DNA of 64,000 bases from Bryobacterales bacterium (GCA_003166865.1 PMUP01000068.1:1-64000); one strand, 5' to 3'. Numbered from the stretch's first letter, positions 1-13,934 are shown. Program-made: numbers and translations. The notes: generated by a model not told the origin, from the sequence alone.

Positions 1-504
1 CGCGCCGAAGTAGCCGCCGTAGAGCGCCACGAAGAGTTGAAAGAGCATCGCGCCGATCAGCCAGCGAGTGGATTTGTGAGATTCGGGATTTGAAATCTTC
101 AGCCGCCTCTGGATGGGCTCCTGGACCATGAAGAGCAGCGTCGCGAAGAGGATCAGGAATGGCACGAGCGCATCGAAGACCGCAGGCGGAGTGTGATTCA
201 GCAGCAGCGCACCGAGAATGCCTCCGACGACACTGGGCGCGGCCAGTGCCAGCATGCGCGGGCTGGACGTTCGCAGTTCTGTCCGATAGCCCCAGATGGT
301 CCCGACGGTTCCGGGCCAGATGGCGACCGTGCTGGTGGCGTTCGCATTGATCGACGGCAGCCCGAGCCAGATCAAAGTGGGAAATGTGAGCAGCGTGCCG
401 CCGCCGGCCACGGAGTTGATGGCCCCGGCCACGAAGGCGGCGCCGAATGCCACGACTGCTTGCCACGGAGCTATTGAGGTAGGAAGTGCTATAAGGAAGA
501 ACAT
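1..504 (-). CDS. TauE/SafE family membrane permease (3' end beyond window)
   Basis: This is the N-terminal 168 codons of a TauE/SafE permease, a family that moves sulfite, sulfonates or other small organic anions across the inner membrane. The family signature INSVAGGGTLLTFP lies near residues 27-40, followed by the usual ANATSTVA stretch, and several hydrophobic segments are visible. The frame is open to the first base of the window, so the C-terminal half is missing. The ATG at 504 overlaps the ATG of the divergent gene at 503 within one CATG, so the two share a very short control region or one start is wrong. The family call is firm; the substrate cannot be told. Confidence 0.85.
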   Translation of the reverse strand, partial: MFFLIALPTSIAPWQAVVAFGAAFVAGAINSVAGGGTLLTFPTLIWLGLPSINANATSTVAIWPGTVGTIWGYRTELRTSSPRMLALAAPSVVGGILGALLLNHTPPAVFDALVPFLILFATLLFMVQEPIQRRLKISNPESHKSTRWLIGAMLFQLFVALYGGYFGA

Positions 505-907
505 GCGTCAGAAATTCAGCCTAACATCCGCGGAAGCGCACGCCATCGTAACCGCCGCGAAATTGGAGGCGGTCAAGAACAATTGGAAGGTCTCGATCGC
601 GGTGGTGGATGAAGGCGGGTATCTACTGCACCTCGAGCGCATGGATGGAGCGACGTTACCGAGCCCTGAAATCGCGACGATGAAAGCGCGCACTGCAGCG
701 CTCTCGCGTGTTCCGACGAAGGTTCTTGAGGACATTACCAAAGAACGCGCGGCCACGTTAATGTTTCCGGGCAGGCTGCCGGTGCAAGGCGGGCTTCCAA
801 TTCTGTACGAAGGCGAATGCGTGGGCGGGATCGGCGTTTCGGGCGTCAAATCGGCGGAAGACGAGCAGATCACGAGCGCTGGTTTGGCCGTGCTGGCCGG
901 GAGATAG
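503..907 (+). CDS. GlcG/HbpS family protein (DUF336, haem-binding fold)
   Basis: The 134-residue protein matches the GlcG/HbpS family: an N-terminal LTSAEAHAIV segment, then VSIAVVDEGGYLLHLERMDGA, and a late GLPILYEGECVGGIGVSG stretch. Members bind haem or act as small accessory proteins of glycolate and other oxidation operons. The ATG at 503 was preferred to upstream starts because it places the family's N-terminus correctly and the upstream frame is antisense to the permease. It converges on the cytochrome c gene at 919. No signal peptide is seen, so it is probably cytoplasmic. A role in haem handling beside two cytochrome genes is inference from position. Confidence 0.85.
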   Translation: MRQKFSLTSAEAHAIVTAAKLEAVKNNWKVSIAVVDEGGYLLHLERMDGATLPSPEIATMKARTAALSRVPTKVLEDITKERAATLMFPGRLPVQGGLPILYEGECVGGIGVSGVKSAEDEQITSAGLAVLAGR

Positions 908-918
908 CGCGCGGCTGC

Positions 919-1266
919 TTACTTCTTATACAGGTCGTTCAGCAGTGGAATATCTTTCGCCGGCTTAGCCTTGGCCATGGTCTGCAAGTACGCGTGGATG
1001 TCCGTCAGCTCCTGATCGGTGATCACTTTGTCAGTGTAGGCGGGCATTGCGCCGGCGGGAGCCCGCACGTAGTGGATCAGCCCTTGCGCGTTCAGGCCGA
1101 TCACCGCGATTCGCGCACCGTCCCTGCCGCCTTGCCCCGCGTAGCCATGGCACTCATAGCAACCGTCACGGAGGAACAGCTTCTTACCGTTGGCCGCGTC
1201 TGGGGCCGCACCTTGCGCGAGCAGTGTGGCGGCTGAGAAGGCCGCAGCGAAAACAAGTGGCTTCAT
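919..1266 (-). CDS. Small mono-haem c-type cytochrome, secreted (cassette copy A)
   Basis: A 115-residue exported cytochrome c. A signal peptide (residues 1 to about 18) precedes one CYECH haem motif near residues 37-41, and a Met in GAMPAYTDK is a plausible sixth ligand. The C-terminus AKDIPLLNDLYKK is conserved with the second cytochrome at 3339. It starts 2 nt after the stop of the ThDP enzyme gene, so the two are surely co-transcribed and probably translationally coupled. The context suggests it takes electrons from that exported enzyme in the periplasm; this is inference. The start is the ATG at 1266; a longer frame upstream is antisense noise within the ThDP gene. Confidence 0.9.
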   Translation of the reverse strand: MKPLVFAAAFSAATLLAQGAAPDAANGKKLFLRDGCYECHGYAGQGGRDGARIAVIGLNAQGLIHYVRAPAGAMPAYTDKVITDQELTDIHAYLQTMAKAKPAKDIPLLNDLYKK

Positions 1267-1268
1267 GG

Positions 1269-3218
1269 TTACCTCGGTTGCGTGACCACGTCGATCATGG
1301 CCGGCTCGCCCTTCTTCACCACTTCGATAGCACGCTTGATGGCCGGGCCGAGATCGTTGGGATTCTCGATGGGACCTTCGCTGAACATGCCGTAGGCCTT
1401 GGCCATCATCGCGTAATCGATATTCGGATCTGTAATCGCGGTGCCGATCCCGGCCCGGTCCACGCCTCGGCGGGCGCGAGCGGCCATGTCTTCGACGTAC
1501 ATCAGTTCCTGATGATAGGCGCGATTGTTGTGCATGATGTTCAGCATCGGAATGCGATGATGCGCGGCTGTCCAGAGAACGCCGGGGGCGTAGTTCAAAT
1601 CGCCGTCGCACTGAATGTTGACGCTGATGCGCCCGTGCTTCTTGTTGGCTAGCGCCGCGCCAACGGCCGCTGGAGCGCCATAGCCGACGCCGTAAGCGCC
1701 GTGCCCGCCGATGAAGTGATAGGGCTTGTCGAAATCCCACAGACGCCTCGGCCACCACGAGACGAAAGTCACATCCGATACCAGCGACCAGTCTTCAGTC
1801 TTGATCTGATTCCACAGCTCAGCAGCCATGCGGGCGGTGGTCACTGGGCTCGCGTCCCAGCCCCAAGCGGCCTGCTCGATGTCGCGCTCTCGATTGCGTC
1901 TGCTCACCTCGGCGAGTTTCGCCGCCCGTGCTTGAATCACGGCCTTGCGATCGGCCGTGATCAGCTTGCGGCATTCGTCGATCAACATCGGTAAAGTCGC
2001 TTGGGCATCCGCCGCGATGGCCAGATCCACTTCGTCGTAGCGGCCGAAATCCTGATAGTTGCTCTTGCCGAAAAGGTCGCCGGCGAAGATCGTGATCACC
2101 TTCGCGCCCGGCTTGGTGACGCGTTTGGACTCCATGCCCATCTTGTTCACCGGCGTTTGGGTGTGCGTGACCTGCCACATGTCGGGCACTTCCAGACCGA
2201 GCACAACATCGGCGCCACCAACAGTGCCAGCGCCGTAGAGCGGATGGGCGGTGGGGAAATTCATGCGAAGGTTGCGATCGATGACCGGAGCTTGGAGCGT
2301 CTCGGCCAGTTGGACCAACAGATTGATACCTTCCGGAGTGCGCGCCACGCGGCCCGCCACGATGACCGGGTTCTCGGCGGCCACCAGCATTTTCGCGGCT
2401 TCCTTGATAGCGCCGTAATCGCCCGCGGGCGGTGAGGCCAAAGTCAGTTTGGGAATTTGCAGCCGTCCGCGATCGGCTTCGGGAATCGGTTCTTCCTGCA
2501 ACACGGCGTCTGCCACGATCACGATCGGCTCCATGGGCGGGGTCATCGCGATCTTGTATGCGCGCACGGCGGATTCGGCGAAACCTCCCAGCGACACCGG
2601 CGAATCGTCCCACTTGGTGTAGTCGCGAACCATCGAAGCGGCGTCTTGGACGCTGTGCGCCCATTCGACATCGCTGCGGCGCCACGCGCCATCCTGGATA
2701 TTGCCAAGCAAAAGATAGACCGGTACGCGATCGGCGTACGCATTGTAGATGGCCATCGATGCGTGCTGTAGGCCGACAGTGCCGTGCGCCATCACCATCA
2801 TCGGCTTGCCTTCGATCTTGTAATAGCCGTGCGCCATGGCGATCGACGATTCTTCGTGGCAGCAAGTGAGCAGCTCGGGCGCCTTGTTGCCGCCGTAGTT
2901 GATGAGCGATTCGTGGATGCCGCGGAAGGCGGAGCCGGGGTTGGCGGCGACGTATTCGAAGCCCAGCGTCTTGATGACGTCGACCATGAAGTCCGAACCT
3001 GGGCGGTCGGTTGTCCATACGTCCACGTGCGGTGGCGGCGTGGTTTCGGAAGCGGTCTGCTTGGCGCCCGGCAGGGGAGTCGGAGTCGCGGGGCGATGAA
3101 CTTCCGCCGCGTCTTGCGCTTTGGCGGCCTCGGGCCTAGCGACCAGCGCGGCAGCGCCGGCAGCGGCGCCCTTCAAGAAGCCGCGACGGTCAACTGAAAT
3201 CTTCTTGGATCTCGCCAT
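1269..3218 (-). CDS. Tat-exported thiamine-diphosphate-dependent enzyme (acetolactate synthase-like), copy A
   Basis: A 649-residue member of the acetolactate synthase/pyruvate oxidase/benzoylformate decarboxylase superfamily. A twin-arginine signal (DRRGFLKG, Arg11-Arg12, then an Ala-rich core) predicts folded export. The putative catalytic Glu is near residue 122 in CHEESSIAMAHGY. The ThDP/Mg motif appears as CDGD at about 537-540 with NN at about 564-565; the first Gly of the usual GDG is Cys here. The start at 3218 is set by GGGAGGA about 7 nt upstream. It is a paralogue of the gene at 3697 and is followed immediately by a cytochrome c gene. Substrate unknown; decarboxylating oxidation with the cytochrome as acceptor is only a hypothesis. 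A periplasmic ThDP enzyme is unusual. Confidence 0.85.
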   Translation of the reverse strand: MARSKKISVDRRGFLKGAAAGAAALVARPEAAKAQDAAEVHRPATPTPLPGAKQTASETTPPPHVDVWTTDRPGSDFMVDVIKTLGFEYVAANPGSAFRGIHESLINYGGNKAPELLTCCHEESSIAMAHGYYKIEGKPMMVMAHGTVGLQHASMAIYNAYADRVPVYLLLGNIQDGAWRRSDVEWAHSVQDAASMVRDYTKWDDSPVSLGGFAESAVRAYKIAMTPPMEPIVIVADAVLQEEPIPEADRGRLQIPKLTLASPPAGDYGAIKEAAKMLVAAENPVIVAGRVARTPEGINLLVQLAETLQAPVIDRNLRMNFPTAHPLYGAGTVGGADVVLGLEVPDMWQVTHTQTPVNKMGMESKRVTKPGAKVITIFAGDLFGKSNYQDFGRYDEVDLAIAADAQATLPMLIDECRKLITADRKAVIQARAAKLAEVSRRNRERDIEQAAWGWDASPVTTARMAAELWNQIKTEDWSLVSDVTFVSWWPRRLWDFDKPYHFIGGHGAYGVGYGAPAAVGAALANKKHGRISVNIQCDGDLNYAPGVLWTAAHHRIPMLNIMHNNRAYHQELMYVEDMAARARRGVDRAGIGTAITDPNIDYAMMAKAYGMFSEGPIENPNDLGPAIKRAIEVVKKGEPAMIDVVTQPR

Positions 3219-3245
3219 GGTGAATCCTCCCTGAGGTCGAAACAC

Positions 3246-3258
3246 TCATACTTTATCA
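3246..3258 (-). promoter_or_regulatory. 13-bp motif shared upstream of both ThDP-enzyme genes (copy A)
   Basis: TGATAAAGTATGA (minus strand) lies 28 bp upstream of the ThDP gene start at 3218. The identical 13-mer is at 5682-5694, 60 bp upstream of the paralogous gene. It has promoter-like AT content and may be a duplicated promoter or operator; function is inferred. Confidence 0.4.
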
Positions 3259-3282
3259 TGACGGCAGGCGGGGGGACACTTG

Positions 3283-3342
3283 GCCACAGATAAACGCAGA
3301 TTAACGCAGATCTGTGTTCATCTGTGTCAATCCGTGGCTCAG
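3283..3342. repeat. Dispersed inverted repeat, copy 1
   Basis: The arms GCCACAGATAAACGCAGAT and ATCTGTGTCAATCCGTGGC are near-inverted repeats, and the left arm itself has a 10-bp internal period (CAGATAAACG, CAGATTAACG, CAGAT). Related copies lie at 19391-19470 and 54326-54400. This copy abuts the stop codon of the cytochrome gene at 3339. It could fold as a hairpin and act as a terminator, but no T-run follows. It has no coding capacity. Confidence 0.75.
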
Positions 3343-3680
3343 TTTTCTTTTAGCAGTTCTTGAATTAGCGGGATGTTCTTGGCGTCCGGCGAAGTCGGGA
3401 GCGACTTGATATAGGCGTAAATATCCGCGAGTTTCTCATCCGGAAGAACCTTGGACGAATACGACGGCATGCGTCCGGCGTTGCGAACGAACGCCGTGAA
3501 ACCCGCCTGATTCAGCGGCATGGGAACCAGCCGAGCGCCCGCGCCGCCGTGCCCGTCGAAGCTATGGCAGGAGTAGCAGCCGAAGCTCAGGAACAGCTCC
3601 TTGCCGTGTTTTGCGTCGCCTGCCGGCGATTGTGCGCAGGCTAGGACCGCGATTAAGGCGAGTAAAAGTAGTCGCTGCAT
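3339..3680 (-). CDS. Small mono-haem c-type cytochrome, secreted (cassette copy B)
   Basis: A 113-residue exported cytochrome with a signal peptide (residues 1-17, ending near ACAQS), one CYSCH haem motif near residues 35-39, and GRMPSYSSK with a likely axial Met. The C-terminal AKNIPLIQELLKEN parallels that of the cytochrome at 919. GAGGA lies just upstream of the ATG at 3680. It begins 16 nt after the ThDP enzyme stop, so they form one transcript. It is probably the electron acceptor or relay for the exported ThDP enzyme; that pairing is seen twice here but the reaction is not known. Confidence 0.9.
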   Translation of the reverse strand: MQRLLLLALIAVLACAQSPAGDAKHGKELFLSFGCYSCHSFDGHGGAGARLVPMPLNQAGFTAFVRNAGRMPSYSSKVLPDEKLADIYAYIKSLPTSPDAKNIPLIQELLKEN

Positions 3681-3696
3681 TGATTCCTCGGCTGGG

Positions 3697-5622
3697 TTAC
3701 CTCGGCTGGGTGACCACGTCGATCATGACCGGCTCGCCCTTCTTCACGATTTCGATGCCGCGCTTGAGCGCCGGGACCAGATCGTTGGGATCGCTGATGG
3801 GGCCTTCACCATGCATGCCGTACGCCTGCGCCATCTTGGCGTAATCGATATTCGGATCCCACAGTTTTGTTCCGATGTGCGAACGGTCCGCGCCGCGATT
3901 GTGCAACGCGGCCTGCTGCTCGACGAACATCACTTCCTGATGATAGCCGCGGTTGTTGTGCATGATGGTCAGTAGCGGGATGCGATGATGCGCGGCGGTC
4001 CACAGCACGCCGGGCGCGTAGTTCATATCGCCATCGGTCTGGATGTTGACAGATAGGCGGCCATGCTTACGGTTTGCCAAAGCGGCGCCCACAGCAGCCG
4101 GTGCGCCGTAGCCCATGCCACCCGCACCCTGCCCACCGATGTACTGATAATGCTTGTCGAATTTCCACAACCGGTTCGGCCAATTACCGACGAAGCCTTG
4201 CGGGGAAACCAGCGACCAGTCTTCGGTCTTGATCAGCGGCCACAGCTCGGCGGTTAAGCGTGCCAGGCTGATGGGGCTGGAATCCCAACCGTATTGCGCG
4301 TCCTCAATCTGACGCTCCCAAGCTTTCTTATGCGCTTCCACCAGCTTCGCGCCACGATCCTGGAGCGCCCGTTTGCGATCGGCAGTGAGCTCTTTCTTGA
4401 TTTCTTCGATCAGCGCAGGCAGCGTCGCCTGAGCATCCGCGCCGATGTCGAGATCGATGTCGGCGTAGTGTCCGAAGTCCTGAAGGTTGCTCTTGTGGGA
4501 GACGGAGACCGAGGTGATTTGGATGGTTTTGGCGCCACGCGCGCGATCAATACGAGCTTGCGGAAGAATGTCACCTACCTCCAGGTTCAGCGTCACATCG
4601 GGCTGATAGCCCTGCCAGCCAGTGCCCGCCAGCGGATGCCGCGTTGGGAAATTCATGCGCTCCTGGCTGTTGACCGGCGCTTGCAGCAGTTCGGCCAATT
4701 CCACTAGCAGCGTCATGCCCTCGGGTGTGCGCGCCATGCGCTGCGCGATGATCTGCGGGCGCTCGGCATTGATCAGAAGTTTCGCGGCTTCCTGAATGGC
4801 GGCCATGTCGCCAGCGGGCGGTGTGGTCAGAGTGAGTTTCGGGATACGCGGGGTCGCGCCCTGAATCGGATCGCCCTGTATCTCGGCGTTGCAGACGATC
4901 AAGACTGGACCGCCGGGCGGCGTCATCGCAATGTTATAGGCACGCACCGCCGTTTCGGCGAAATGGCCGAGCGACAGAGGCTCGTCGTCCCACTTGGTGT
5001 AGTCGCGAACCAGCGCGCCCAAATCCTGAGCACTGTGCAGCGACTGTACACCCGGAGCGCGCCGCGCGCCATCGGAGTGATTGCCAACCACCATATAGAT
5101 GGGCACGCGATCGACGTAGGCGTTGTAGATCGCCATCGCCGCGTGCTGTAGCCCGATGTCGCCGTGAATTAGCGCCATCATCGGCTTGCCTTCGATCTTC
5201 GCGTAGCCGTGGGCCATGGCAACGGCCGACTCTTCGTGGCAGGCCGTCAGAAACTCGGGCATTTTGTTGTCGCCATAATTAATGAGCGACTCGTGCAGCG
5301 ATTCGTATGTCGAGCCCGGATTGGCGGCGAGATATTCGATGTTGAGCGACTTGATCACGTCCACCATGTAATCCGAGCCAGGATGCTCGATCACGCGAGA
5401 GGATTCCGCGGGACGGCCACCGGTTTCGCGCGCGAGTGCGACTTGCGTGGGCTCGGCCGCCGAGCCATTAATGCCCTGCTTTTGGGCCGTTGGCTGGCCG
5501 TTCGGCGCGGCTGTCTGCTGGGCATCGGCGAGCTGAGGTTTCGCAACGAGCGCCGCCGCGCCGGCGGCAGCGCCTTTCAAGAACCCACGACGATCCACCG
5601 AAGTCTTCTTGGATTTCGACAT
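3697..5622 (-). CDS. Tat-exported thiamine-diphosphate-dependent enzyme (acetolactate synthase-like), copy B
   Basis: The 641-residue paralogue of the gene at 1269. It keeps the twin-arginine signal (DRRGFLKG then an Ala-rich core), the CHEESAVAMAHGY catalytic-Glu region near residue 130, and the ThDP motif TDGD...HNN in the C-terminal third; here the first Gly of GDG is Thr. GGGAGGA upstream fixes the ATG at 5622. The two copies diverge mainly in the linker after the signal peptide and in central loops, suggesting different substrates rather than simple dosage. It is followed by its own cytochrome gene and preceded by an HxlR regulator gene on the same strand. The superfamily is confident, the reaction is not. 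Confidence 0.85.
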   Translation of the reverse strand: MSKSKKTSVDRRGFLKGAAAGAAALVAKPQLADAQQTAAPNGQPTAQKQGINGSAAEPTQVALARETGGRPAESSRVIEHPGSDYMVDVIKSLNIEYLAANPGSTYESLHESLINYGDNKMPEFLTACHEESAVAMAHGYAKIEGKPMMALIHGDIGLQHAAMAIYNAYVDRVPIYMVVGNHSDGARRAPGVQSLHSAQDLGALVRDYTKWDDEPLSLGHFAETAVRAYNIAMTPPGGPVLIVCNAEIQGDPIQGATPRIPKLTLTTPPAGDMAAIQEAAKLLINAERPQIIAQRMARTPEGMTLLVELAELLQAPVNSQERMNFPTRHPLAGTGWQGYQPDVTLNLEVGDILPQARIDRARGAKTIQITSVSVSHKSNLQDFGHYADIDLDIGADAQATLPALIEEIKKELTADRKRALQDRGAKLVEAHKKAWERQIEDAQYGWDSSPISLARLTAELWPLIKTEDWSLVSPQGFVGNWPNRLWKFDKHYQYIGGQGAGGMGYGAPAAVGAALANRKHGRLSVNIQTDGDMNYAPGVLWTAAHHRIPLLTIMHNNRGYHQEVMFVEQQAALHNRGADRSHIGTKLWDPNIDYAKMAQAYGMHGEGPISDPNDLVPALKRGIEIVKKGEPVMIDVVTQPR

Positions 5623-5681
5623 ACGCCAATCCTCCCGGATCGCTATCGCTCAGACCAGGCGCCCAAGCCTAGCCAAGCATT

Positions 5682-5694
5682 TCATACTTTATCA
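5682..5694 (-). promoter_or_regulatory. 13-bp motif shared upstream of both ThDP-enzyme genes (copy B)
   Basis: The 13-mer identical to that at 3246-3258. Here it also encodes the last codons and stop of the HxlR regulator gene. This implies that the copy at 3246 was carried along when the ThDP-cytochrome cassette duplicated, or that both keep a promoter. Function is inferred. Confidence 0.4.
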
Positions 5695-6056
5695 CTTCCG
5701 TTTCGAACTGATTGGGCCGGGGCGCCACGCCCGAGATGCAGCCTGCCCCACGCCCACAACGTTTCAAAGACAGGGCCGAGAGTCCGGCCGTGTTGGGTTA
5801 GCCGATATCTCACCCCCAGTGCCGGCTTATATAGCACGGACCGGGCCACCACGCCGTCAGCTTCGAGTTGCCGTAGGTGTTGCCGCAGCACCTTGATTGT
5901 CACCCCAGGCATCGTGCGCCGAAGTTCGCCAAATCCGAGGGCGCCATCGCCGAGCCGCCTAAAGATCATCGGCTTCCAGCGACCCTCAATCACCTGGATG
6001 GCCGCGTAAACGGGACACTGGTCTCGTTCGACATGGCTTGCGCCCTGTTTGCTCAT
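5682..6056 (-). CDS. HxlR-family winged-helix transcriptional regulator
   Basis: The 124-residue protein has the HxlR signature: CPVYAAIQVIEGRWKPMIFR with the conserved Cys near the N-terminus, then FGELRRTMPGVTIKVLRQHLRQLEADGVV (recognition helix and wing). HxlR proteins often sense electrophiles or quinones through that Cys and control neighbouring detoxification genes. The ATG at 6056 was chosen; a GTG at 6065 is possible. Downstream on the same strand lie the ThDP-enzyme/cytochrome cassettes, and a VOC gene diverges at 6138, so it may control either. Family is confident; targets are inferred. Confidence 0.85.
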   Translation of the reverse strand: MSKQGASHVERDQCPVYAAIQVIEGRWKPMIFRRLGDGALGFGELRRTMPGVTIKVLRQHLRQLEADGVVARSVLYKPALGVRYRLTQHGRTLGPVFETLWAWGRLHLGRGAPAQSVRNGSDKV

Positions 6057-6137: not shown

Positions 6138-6527
6138 ATGGCATCCGCTCGCTTATTCCGCGTGATTGTTCCCGTATCAAGTATCGAGGACGCCACAGTC
6201 TTTTACTCCGCGGTCTTGGAGCAACCAGGAATTCGGGTCTCTCCAGGACGGCATTACTTCGGATGTGGCAGCGCCATCCTCGCTTGCTTCGATCCGCGGG
6301 CTGATGGCGACGGCTGGGACGCCAGGCCGAATCCGGAGTATTTGTACTTCGCTGTAGACGATCTGGATGAATACTACCGGCGCGTGAGCGGACAACCGAA
6401 CGGCTCCATCCTCCGGCCGATCGAGACACAACCCTGGGGCGAACGCAGTTTTTATTGCACGGATCTTTTTGGCAACAAACTTTGTTTCGTCGACGAGCGT
6501 ACGATATTCACGGGTGGCTTGATATGA
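6138..6527 (+). CDS. VOC-superfamily (glyoxalase/dioxygenase fold) protein
   Basis: A 129-residue two-motif VOC protein. It begins LFRVIVPVSSIEDATVFYSAVL, has YLYFAVDDLDEYYRRV in the middle, and ends with ERSFYCTDLFGNKLCFVDE, the classic closing strand with a metal-ligand Glu. Such proteins include glyoxalases, fosfomycin- or bleomycin-resistance proteins and dioxygenases; the sequence does not separate these. The ATG at 6138 is used because the frame upstream is antisense to the HxlR gene. Divergence from HxlR suggests it answers to the same signal. Confidence 0.8.
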   Translation: MASARLFRVIVPVSSIEDATVFYSAVLEQPGIRVSPGRHYFGCGSAILACFDPRADGDGWDARPNPEYLYFAVDDLDEYYRRVSGQPNGSILRPIETQPWGERSFYCTDLFGNKLCFVDERTIFTGGLI

Positions 6528-6561: not shown

Positions 6562-8094
6562 TTACTGCGGTAATGCGCAAGAGAAATTCGCGGCGTCGTC
6601 CGTGCTGCCGGTTCCTTTATAGCGCGCGACCTGCGGATAGGGACAGAGCGGACGCGTGCGATCCACAGTTCCCTTGTCGGAGTGCGAGGCGATCATTTGC
6701 TCGGGCGCCTTACCTTGCTCCACCCACTGTTGGATCGCGCCGACCTGGTCAAAAGTATTTGGTCCTTCCCCGCCGCCGCAATGAGCCATGCCGGGAACCA
6801 TGAAGAGCCGGACGTCATCCGATGCCTTTTTCTCGCCGCCCAGATTCTTCACCACACTCGAGTAGTAATTCACGCTGTTGAGCGGCGCGATGAGCTGGTC
6901 GCTCCAGCCGTGATACATCAGGAGCTTGCCTTTGTGCGCGAAGAACGCCTTCATATTTGGATCCATGGCGTCGATCGAACCGTCCTCGGTCTTGTCGAGG
7001 AGCGCGACGTCGCTGTCCAGATTCATTGTCTTCCAGTCCCAAGCTGGGTTTTTGTAGACGACATAGCTGAAACTGTCGGAGGCTACCGAAGCTGCTTGTT
7101 TTCCAGCCAAAATACTCCAGCCGAGTTCGCTTCCGGGTTCGAAGGTTGGGAAAACTTCCTTCCCCGTACGAGGATTCTTGGGACCGGCGTAAATCGCTTG
7201 CACCGCCTCCACCTGCGCGGTCGTCAGGCAAGCAGCGGAGTCCGCACCCTTGCACTCGATCGACTTCGGATCGAAATGGCACTTGGTGGGATCGTCTAGC
7301 AGGCCGTCTTTCACGCCATCCGTCGCATCACACGCGGCCAGTACGGCTTGATGCAGGAGTGCCAGCTTGGCCGCAGGAAGGGAGCTGTCGGGCGACTTGT
7401 TCACTTGCTGCGCCACCCAGATGGACCAGACATGCAGATGGGTCTGGTAATTGGCTGGCGCGCCAGCGATGATTCCGTCGAAATCCGCCGGGAATTTCTG
7501 TGCTTCCTTCAGGCCCTGACGGCCGCCAGTGGAGCAGCCGTTCCAATAGGAATAGCGCGGTGCGCTGCCGTAGAAATTCTGGATGATGGCCTTGGATGTG
7601 ACCGTCATTTCATGCACGGCGCGGTAGGCGAAATCCGCCAGTTTTTCGGGATGCCCTATGGCGAAGCTCGCGCTCCCGCCGGCGTGGCCGGTGTCGGTGC
7701 CCGCGGTGGCAAATCCACGCTTCACGCCTTCCGCAAGCGGACCATAACCCATGATGCCGTTCCAACCGCCGTTGCCGATGGCCTGGAAATCGTTATTCCA
7801 GCCAGACGCGGGAAGCCAGACTTCGATCTTGATGTCGGAGTCGCTCGATGGCGCGAGGGTGGCCATGACGCGGCAGAACTCCGGCAGACCTTTGAACTGA
7901 GCCATATTCACCGGGAACCCACCCGGCGGCGCGGCCGGCGGCGTGAAGGCGCCCGCGGCAACACTCTGTGACGAGTTAATCGTAACGTTGGGCAGGTTCA
8001 GTTTGGAAAGACTGTCGCAAGTGTTGGCGCCCGTGGGCGCGGCAATCAGGGAAGCTGTGGGAAGGAGCAGCGCGGCAATAGAAAACTTCGTCAT
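6562..8094 (-). CDS. Secreted tannase/feruloyl esterase family hydrolase
   Basis: A 510-residue secreted alpha/beta hydrolase of the tannase/feruloyl esterase family, which cleaves aromatic ester bonds in plant polymers. A signal peptide (about 20 residues) is followed by the hallmark GCSTGGRQGLKEAQKFP with the nucleophile Ser, then DFDGIIAGAPA. Late motifs YHGWSDQLIAP and VPGMAHCGGGEGP carry the Asp and His of the triad. The ATG at 8094 sits 7 nt after AGGAG; a second ATG at 8100 is too close to it. It converges on the VOC gene with 34 nt between. Function at family level is confident; the exact ester is unknown. Confidence 0.9.
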   Translation of the reverse strand: MTKFSIAALLLPTASLIAAPTGANTCDSLSKLNLPNVTINSSQSVAAGAFTPPAAPPGGFPVNMAQFKGLPEFCRVMATLAPSSDSDIKIEVWLPASGWNNDFQAIGNGGWNGIMGYGPLAEGVKRGFATAGTDTGHAGGSASFAIGHPEKLADFAYRAVHEMTVTSKAIIQNFYGSAPRYSYWNGCSTGGRQGLKEAQKFPADFDGIIAGAPANYQTHLHVWSIWVAQQVNKSPDSSLPAAKLALLHQAVLAACDATDGVKDGLLDDPTKCHFDPKSIECKGADSAACLTTAQVEAVQAIYAGPKNPRTGKEVFPTFEPGSELGWSILAGKQAASVASDSFSYVVYKNPAWDWKTMNLDSDVALLDKTEDGSIDAMDPNMKAFFAHKGKLLMYHGWSDQLIAPLNSVNYYSSVVKNLGGEKKASDDVRLFMVPGMAHCGGGEGPNTFDQVGAIQQWVEQGKAPEQMIASHSDKGTVDRTRPLCPYPQVARYKGTGSTDDAANFSCALPQ

Positions 8095-8194
8095 GGACAT
8101 TCTCCTCGGCAATTATATACCCGACGCTCCCCGCTCCTTCCGGGCGGGCGTGCTATTCTGAGATCGCAGCTCTTCGATTACCCCAGTGCCGTTC

Positions 8195-11645: not shown

Positions 11646-13934
<2,289 letters not shown>

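Follow-up and report, generated by a model that had tools for sequence, protein, structure and literature searches.

Tandem pairs of a putatively exported thiamine diphosphate enzyme and a class I cytochrome c in a Bryobacterales genome: a candidate two-protein periplasmic oxidoreductase

The first 6.1 kb of a 64,000-nt stretch of DNA from a Bryobacterales bacterium (GCA_003166865.1, PMUP01000068.1:1-64000; the whole stretch is called the window here) carries two tandem cassettes, each encoding a thiamine diphosphate (ThDP)-dependent enzyme with a predicted twin-arginine translocation (Tat) signal, followed by a secreted mono-haem class I cytochrome c. With a probability of roughly 0.5, we read each cassette as a two-protein periplasmic oxidoreductase, in which the ThDP enzyme would act on a 2-oxo acid or an aldehyde and pass electrons on through its own cytochrome, replacing a nicotinamide adenine dinucleotide (NAD)-dependent aldehyde dehydrogenase. 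The genes lie on the minus strand, where the order of transcription is HxlR-type regulator, ThDP-2, cyt-2, ThDP-1, cyt-1, and a third pair is found elsewhere in the genome (contig C63). The coordinates proposed in an earlier annotation of the window (the original prediction), with gaps of 2 and 16 nt between enzyme and cytochrome, are borne out by our gene calls; the cassette end given there, 6056, includes the HxlR-type regulator (5682-6056).

Previously, a twin-arginine signal had been proposed for each ThDP enzyme, and its conservation agrees with this. In an alignment of 53 homologues (A1), R11, R12 and F14 are invariant, and 105 of the 109 non-redundant family members carry the RR motif, the remaining four being cut by contig ends or having uncertain starts. 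An RRxF[LIVM] motif is near-invariant in the family and is followed by a hydrophobic stretch, as in Tat substrates; both window enzymes carry the leader SVDRRGFLKGAAAGAAALV, and a tatC gene is present in the genome. Because the Pfam TAT_signal model alone matched at 18.9 bits, below its curated cut-off of 22.7, the assignment of the signal rests on family conservation. Judged by these features, export of the ThDP enzymes via Tat is strongly supported. Both cytochromes have a Sec-type leader and a single CxxCH.

Adjacency of the cytochrome was evaluated for the 98 members with at least 900 nt of known downstream sequence. A CxxCH protein is encoded downstream on the same strand in 73 of these, compared with a downstream CxxCH open reading frame (ORF) for 15 of 574 control ORFs of the same contigs (2.6%; Fisher p about 2e-60, a value that is overstated, related sequences not being independent). 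We conclude from this comparison that the gene arrangement is beyond chance. Five further evaluable members have a cytochrome nearby, in three cases on the opposite strand.

Relatives were collected in a scan of genome contigs, with the best 80 of 279 kept. Among 200 genomes from the same family, 24 had close matches, and a phylum-wide sample added further acidobacterial families. In all, the pair recurs in several families of Acidobacteria. The pair also extends beyond Acidobacteriota to at least two Proteobacteria. Plasmid p3 of Caballeronia zhejiangensis encodes a 50% identical enzyme with a Tat signal and, 8 nt downstream, a di-haem cytochrome, near a ring-hydroxylating dioxygenase cluster; a plasmid of Novosphingobium sp. 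KACC 22771 encodes a 44% identical enzyme with a Tat signal and a cytochrome next to it. One metagenome-assembled genome (MAG) gave a proteobacterial match, and in a 369-genome sample of its class that genome was again the only match. Some matches bear the MAG labels Bordetella, Acidimicrobiia and Gammaproteobacteria, which were not accepted as evidence of the host. Phage sequences gave weak partial matches only, and the loci examined showed no natural gene in which a ThDP enzyme is fused to a cytochrome. The pattern that the original prediction had named as fatal to an exported redox pair, homologues without both the twin-arginine signal and the cytochrome neighbour, was not what we found among the homologues.

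The gene order of the window is partly conserved elsewhere, since at L039 (4033-8298) and L010 a ThDP-2-like and then a ThDP-1-like gene stand in tandem, with one cytochrome, after the second enzyme. With 64% identity between them, ThDP-1 and ThDP-2 belong to separate starred clades of the tree and each has closer relatives in other genomes, so their duplication is old. Several same-family genomes also hold a deeper exported paralogue type, 48% identical (L141, G024 contig C8), again with a downstream cytochrome.

In both cyt-1 and cyt-2, the Pfam models Cytochrome_CBB3 (PF13442) and Cytochrom_C (PF00034) scored over cut-off, and the features of a class I cytochrome c are present, with C17, C20, H21 and the downstream Met ligand, Met55, invariant in the cytochrome alignment (A3). 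This agrees with the secreted mono-haem cytochrome anticipated after each enzyme, as does the common tail (AKDIPLLNDLYKK and AKNIPLIQELLKEN). A KDIPLL-type C-terminal tail (K-D/S/N-I-P-L-L) recurs throughout the partner cytochrome family and also closes the first domain of the Caballeronia di-haem cytochrome. When eight genomes were searched with the A3 profile, 29 strong cytochromes were obtained (58-147 bits), the next best reaching at most 41 bits, and 24 of the 29 lie beside a ThDP-enzyme gene (two of these recognised from added flanks). Enzyme and cytochrome distances rise together (Mantel r 0.68, against at most 0.33 on permutation), a correlation to which shared ancestry contributes. 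These patterns of conservation lend strong support to a cytochrome dedicated to the exported ThDP enzyme. In one locus (L083, 7920-8777, plus strand), the partner cytochrome has a C-terminal extension of ~190 residues that looks cupin-like by eye, for which Pfam reports the cytochrome domain only.

TPP_enzyme_N, M and C all scored over the Pfam cut-off in ThDP-1; in ThDP-2, the N and C models did so, and TPP_enzyme_M reached 26.3 of 30.4 bits. The predicted fold is closest to benzoylformate decarboxylase (BFDC; VIA-align Z 38.7, 3.1 angstroms, 506 residues, 25% identity), a fold common to the whole POX/decarboxylase superfamily of ThDP enzymes. The two enzymes scored below the cut-offs of the equivalog models for benzoylformate decarboxylase (NF005485; 141 and 163 bits, cut-off 493) and acetolactate synthase (TIGR00118; 108 and 127 bits, cut-off 538), of the pyruvate oxidase model (NF006377; 76 and 102 bits, cut-off 742), and of the best NCBIfam match, NF006203 (PRK08327 thiamine pyrophosphate-requiring protein; 235 and 246 bits, cut-off 456), for which the exported plasmid members and the cytosolic relatives were likewise too low. 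No curated family claims the window enzymes. Thus, the two acetolactate-synthase-like paralogues originally proposed are indeed paralogues, but the acetolactate-synthase label is too narrow, the nearest solved fold being that of BFDC.

We tabulated active-site positions for 109 exported sequences and 11 cytosolic relatives. E122, H145, D538, G539 and N564 are invariant among the exported sequences (109/109), with Ser96 in 103 and Asn565 in 108 of them. The cofactor Glu and the Asp...Asn-Asn magnesium site of the ThDP superfamily are present (E122, D538, N564, N565), and in the alignment E122, H145 and S96 of ThDP-1 correspond to Glu47, His70 and Ser26 of BFDC. The role of BFDC His281 is disputed (PMC6028569); the middle domain aligns with too many gaps for a role of its equivalent here to be judged.

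Two further residues bear on the chemistry. Glu571 lies at +6 from the magnesium-binding Asn565, at a position held by Leu461 in BFDC, Glu473 in pyruvate decarboxylase (PDC), Glu493 in the actinobacterial 2-hydroxyacyl-CoA lyase and Ile480 in pyruvate oxidase (POX) (PMC13327070, Table 1). His188, invariant in the exported clade, aligns with BFDC Leu110 and thereby with PDC His114 and POX Gln122. A Glu plus His pattern is that of pyruvate, indolepyruvate and yeast 2-oxo-acid decarboxylases, and the carbanion is passed on unprotonated in pyruvate oxidase (I480/Q122) and AHAS (V483/Q123) (PMC13327070). Because the exported enzymes have the invariant Glu571 and His188 and not the Ile/Val plus Gln signature of pyruvate oxidase, a simple pyruvate-oxidase-like mechanism is disfavoured. 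This Glu and His pair favours 2-oxo acids (or aldehydes) as the substrates, and it speaks against the exported enzymes being merely pyruvate oxidase in another setting.

The tree resolves the exported enzymes as one clade (support 94/95) and their cytosolic relatives as another (91/85), although its outgroup branches are long and the placement of the root is tentative. The cytosolic sister enzymes (from Salipiger, Acidovorax, Sinorhizobium, Agrobacterium and other plasmids) are plasmid-borne, about 31-39% identical and have the same catalytic core. They differ from the exported enzymes in having neither signal nor cytochrome, and in carrying Asp (11/11) in place of Glu571 (Glu in 109/109 exported), mostly Tyr or Phe (once Gly) in place of the invariant His569, and Trp in place of Asn387. 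Of the 11 cytosolic loci, 8 have an aldehyde dehydrogenase gene in the vicinity, as against 2 of the 107 exported ones (Fisher p about 1e-8). Phylum confounds this contrast, since every cytosolic example comes from a proteobacterial plasmid; in addition, several of the exported loci are shorter than the cytosolic ones. The slot held by aldehyde dehydrogenase in the cytosolic clade is filled by the cytochrome in the exported clade, and this replacement is the main reason for thinking that the exported carbonyl chemistry is coupled to oxidation.

We propose that the ThDP enzyme would fold and take up ThDP and magnesium in the cytoplasm before its export through Tat, and homology together with the predicted fold suggests an active site like that of BFDC. 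ThDP would add a 2-oxo acid or aldehyde, giving a carbanion/enamine intermediate. The class I cytochrome c encoded alongside, its conserved tail perhaps docked on the enzyme, would accept electrons from this intermediate, or from an aldehyde product, and hand them to the respiratory chain. A carboxylic acid would result overall, with no need for an NAD-dependent aldehyde dehydrogenase. The original prediction is thus partly supported: its export signal and dedicated cytochrome are upheld, and oxidative chemistry wired to respiration is the best explanation, though not by a mechanism simply like that of pyruvate oxidase, which is disfavoured. A more specific version goes beyond what we would call probable and is put forward tentatively: the ThDP carbanion might be oxidised directly by a periplasmic c-type haem, with no flavin adenine dinucleotide (FAD) or iron-sulphur relay, in a new class of ThDP:cytochrome c oxidoreductases that arose once from cytosolic 2-oxo-acid decarboxylases.

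Several observations weigh against a dedicated oxidoreductase pair. Twenty of the 98 evaluable members have no cytochrome of this kind nearby. Five of the 29 close family cytochromes lack a ThDP gene as neighbour, and the carrier may be less exclusive than proposed; the genomes with these five also hold ThDP genes lacking an adjacent cytochrome. One of the five, at L167 (2279-5033, minus strand), has a KDIP tail and lies 94 nt behind a pyrroloquinoline quinone (PQQ) dehydrogenase and not a ThDP gene. Glu571 and His188 are the residues of enzymes such as pyruvate and indolepyruvate decarboxylases, in which the carbanion is protonated and an aldehyde leaves. On the supporting side, docking was approached with an artificial read-through fusion of the in-frame neighbour pair at L039, the stop codon being read as Ser. 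In this model, the predicted local distance difference test (pLDDT) score was 94-97 for the conserved tail and 72-91 for the cytochrome core, against 86-87 and 81-96, respectively, for the window cytochrome modelled alone, a comparison that is indirect, with no coordinates or contacts visible and different target sequences. The higher confidence of the tail in the fusion model fits docking on the enzyme and is no proof of it.

The same two residues, the members with no adjacent cytochrome, the cytochrome behind the PQQ dehydrogenase and a fold nearest to BFDC, itself a non-oxidative decarboxylase (PMC6028569), speak for the main rival. By this account, the enzyme would be a non-oxidative periplasmic 2-oxo-acid decarboxylase or C-C lyase that protonates its carbanion and releases an aldehyde, and the cytochrome would merely be co-regulated, serving a redox switch or some other dehydrogenase of the periplasm. 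Glu571 in particular favours it. However, the neighbour survey turned up no recurrent third redox enzyme alongside the pair, the tight packing of the two genes, the conservation of the tail and the correlated divergence point to a direct partner, and the aldehyde dehydrogenase neighbour is lost where the cytochrome is gained. We therefore regard the non-oxidative rival as unlikely, if the most serious of the alternatives.

Another account retains the cytochrome as oxidant and changes the substrate. Aldehydes or acyloins, not 2-oxo acids, would be oxidised, with Glu571 acting as the base that takes the C2-alpha proton of an aldehyde-ThDP adduct and the cytochrome oxidising the enamine. Such a scheme would reconcile a carbanion-(de)protonating Glu with both the cytochrome and the replacement of aldehyde dehydrogenase, and an HxlR-type regulator upstream of ThDP-2 is in keeping with it, some HxlR regulators being responsive to aldehydes or electrophiles. 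His188, however, is typical of 2-oxo-acid decarboxylases, and we consider aldehyde oxidation the more improbable of the two.

The original prediction had also drawn attention to the GDG motif, the first Gly of which is indeed replaced in both window enzymes (C537 in ThDP-1, T529 in ThDP-2). The replacement is not special to them, since the position varies throughout the exported clade (N, T, C, G, D, S and others) and is G or T in the cytosolic one. It is replaced in most exported and in 2 of 11 cytosolic members; the Asp and the last Gly are always kept. Altered GDG as a sign of lost function was rejected, as these two and the other catalytic residues are kept and the cytosolic relatives vary too. 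That the exported enzyme has become a sensor or scaffold and is no longer a ThDP catalyst, as the replaced Gly in most members might suggest, is thus very hard to credit, given the retention of Asp538, Gly539, Asn564, Glu122, His145 and Asn565 noted above and the same catalytic set in cytosolic relatives with Thr or Gly at that position.

For the periplasmic oxidoreductase that we prefer, our guess from gene neighbourhoods is that plant matter supplies the substrate, a small 2-oxo acid or aldehyde that may be aromatic. Operon neighbours indicate no substrate, since among 106 neighbours with 112 Pfam families the commonest family (alpha/beta hydrolases) occurs in five only. At L020, L023 and L065, exported ThDP enzymes without an adjacent cytochrome are directly followed by a homologous protein of ~486 aa, identified in L023 as Abhydrolase_10, a possible substrate clue. 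The features of the window are listed in Table 1.

Table 1. Positions of the cassette features in the window
Feature	Position	Strand	Details and basis
ThDP-1, exported ThDP-dependent enzyme, benzoylformate-decarboxylase fold (predicted)	1269..3218	-	649 aa; Pfam, fold prediction, family alignment A1
ThDP-1 twin-arginine signal (MARSKKISVDRRGFLKGAAAGAAALV...)	3114..3218	-	conservation; Pfam TAT_signal below cut-off
cyt-1, secreted mono-haem class I cytochrome c, putative ThDP-1 partner	919..1266	-	115 aa; 2 nt past ThDP-1 stop
cyt-1 haem-binding CYECH	1147..1161	-	C17, C20, H21 invariant in alignment A3
cyt-1 conserved C-terminal tail (AKDIPLLNDLYKK), candidate docking element	922..960	-	conservation, model confidence
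ThDP-2, exported ThDP-dependent enzyme (predicted), ThDP-1 paralogue	3697..5622	-	641 aa; Pfam
ThDP-2 twin-arginine signal (MSKSKKTSVDRRGFLKGAAAGAAALV...)	5518..5622	-	same basis as ThDP-1 signal
cyt-2, secreted mono-haem class I cytochrome c, putative ThDP-2 partner	3339..3680	-	113 aa; 16 nt past ThDP-2 stop
cyt-2 haem-binding CYSCH	3564..3578	-	sequence, alignment A3
cyt-2 conserved C-terminal tail (AKNIPLIQELLKEN)	3342..3383	-	conservation
ThDP-1 C537-D538-G539 (GDG motif, Cys for first Gly)	1602..1610	-	site table
ThDP-2 T529-D530-G531 (GDG motif, Thr for first Gly)	4030..4038	-	site table
ThDP-1 Glu571 codon (position of PDC Glu473, BFDC Leu461, POX Ile480)	1506..1508	-	site table; PMC13327070
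HxlR-family regulator, upstream of ThDP-2, possible regulator of the cassette	5682..6056	-	PF01638, 82.9 bits

Around the cassettes, an HbpS/GlcG-like haem-degrading-type protein (473-904, plus strand; PF03928, 116.6 bits) is encoded convergently with cyt-1. Upstream lies a gene for a secreted tannase/feruloyl esterase (6562-8112, minus strand; PF07519), with that of a glyoxalase-like protein (6138-6524, plus strand) between it and the cassette. Farther on, a cytochrome P460 gene (11048-11668, minus strand; PF16694) adjoins an ORF resembling catalase-peroxidase KatG (11646-13925, minus strand).

If the proposal is true, the pairs would represent an undescribed bacterial route for oxidising carbonyl compounds outside the cytoplasm, and the presence of several paralogous pairs per genome suggests that they matter to uncultured soil Acidobacteria. 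It raises the concrete question of whether a ThDP carbanion reduces haem c, and the cytosolic sister with its aldehyde dehydrogenase against the exported enzyme with its cytochrome offers a clean matched comparison. We found no description of an exported ThDP enzyme/cytochrome pair in the open-access literature (subscription journals were mostly outside this scope); the sole match with all terms, a Candidatus Nitrotoga paper, was unrelated to the pair.

ThDP carboligase- and decarboxylase-type enzymes are, to our knowledge, regarded as cytoplasmic, and benzoylformate decarboxylase is cytoplasmic. The latter (Pseudomonas putida MdlC, 1BFD) and the 4-hydroxybenzoylformate decarboxylases resemble the window enzymes in their three-domain fold and in the equivalents of Glu47, His70 and Ser26; BFDC differs in having Leu110 and Leu461 where the window enzyme has His188 and Glu571, and in having neither Tat signal nor cytochrome. 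Pyruvate oxidase and E. coli PoxB (pyruvate:quinone oxidoreductase) belong to the same superfamily and feed electrons into respiration; they are FAD-dependent and cytoplasmic or membrane-peripheral, and pyruvate oxidase has Ile480 and Gln122 where the window enzymes have Glu and His. What is novel in the exported ThDP family is its location and its redox partner, whereas the ThDP decarboxylase superfamily to which it belongs is known. We know of no use of ThDP by p-cresol methylhydroxylase, a flavoprotein, or by D-malate:cytochrome c oxidoreductase. By analogy, the pair might nevertheless work like p-cresol methylhydroxylase and D-malate:cytochrome c oxidoreductase (PMC12294151), in which an exported enzyme gives its electrons to a cytochrome c.

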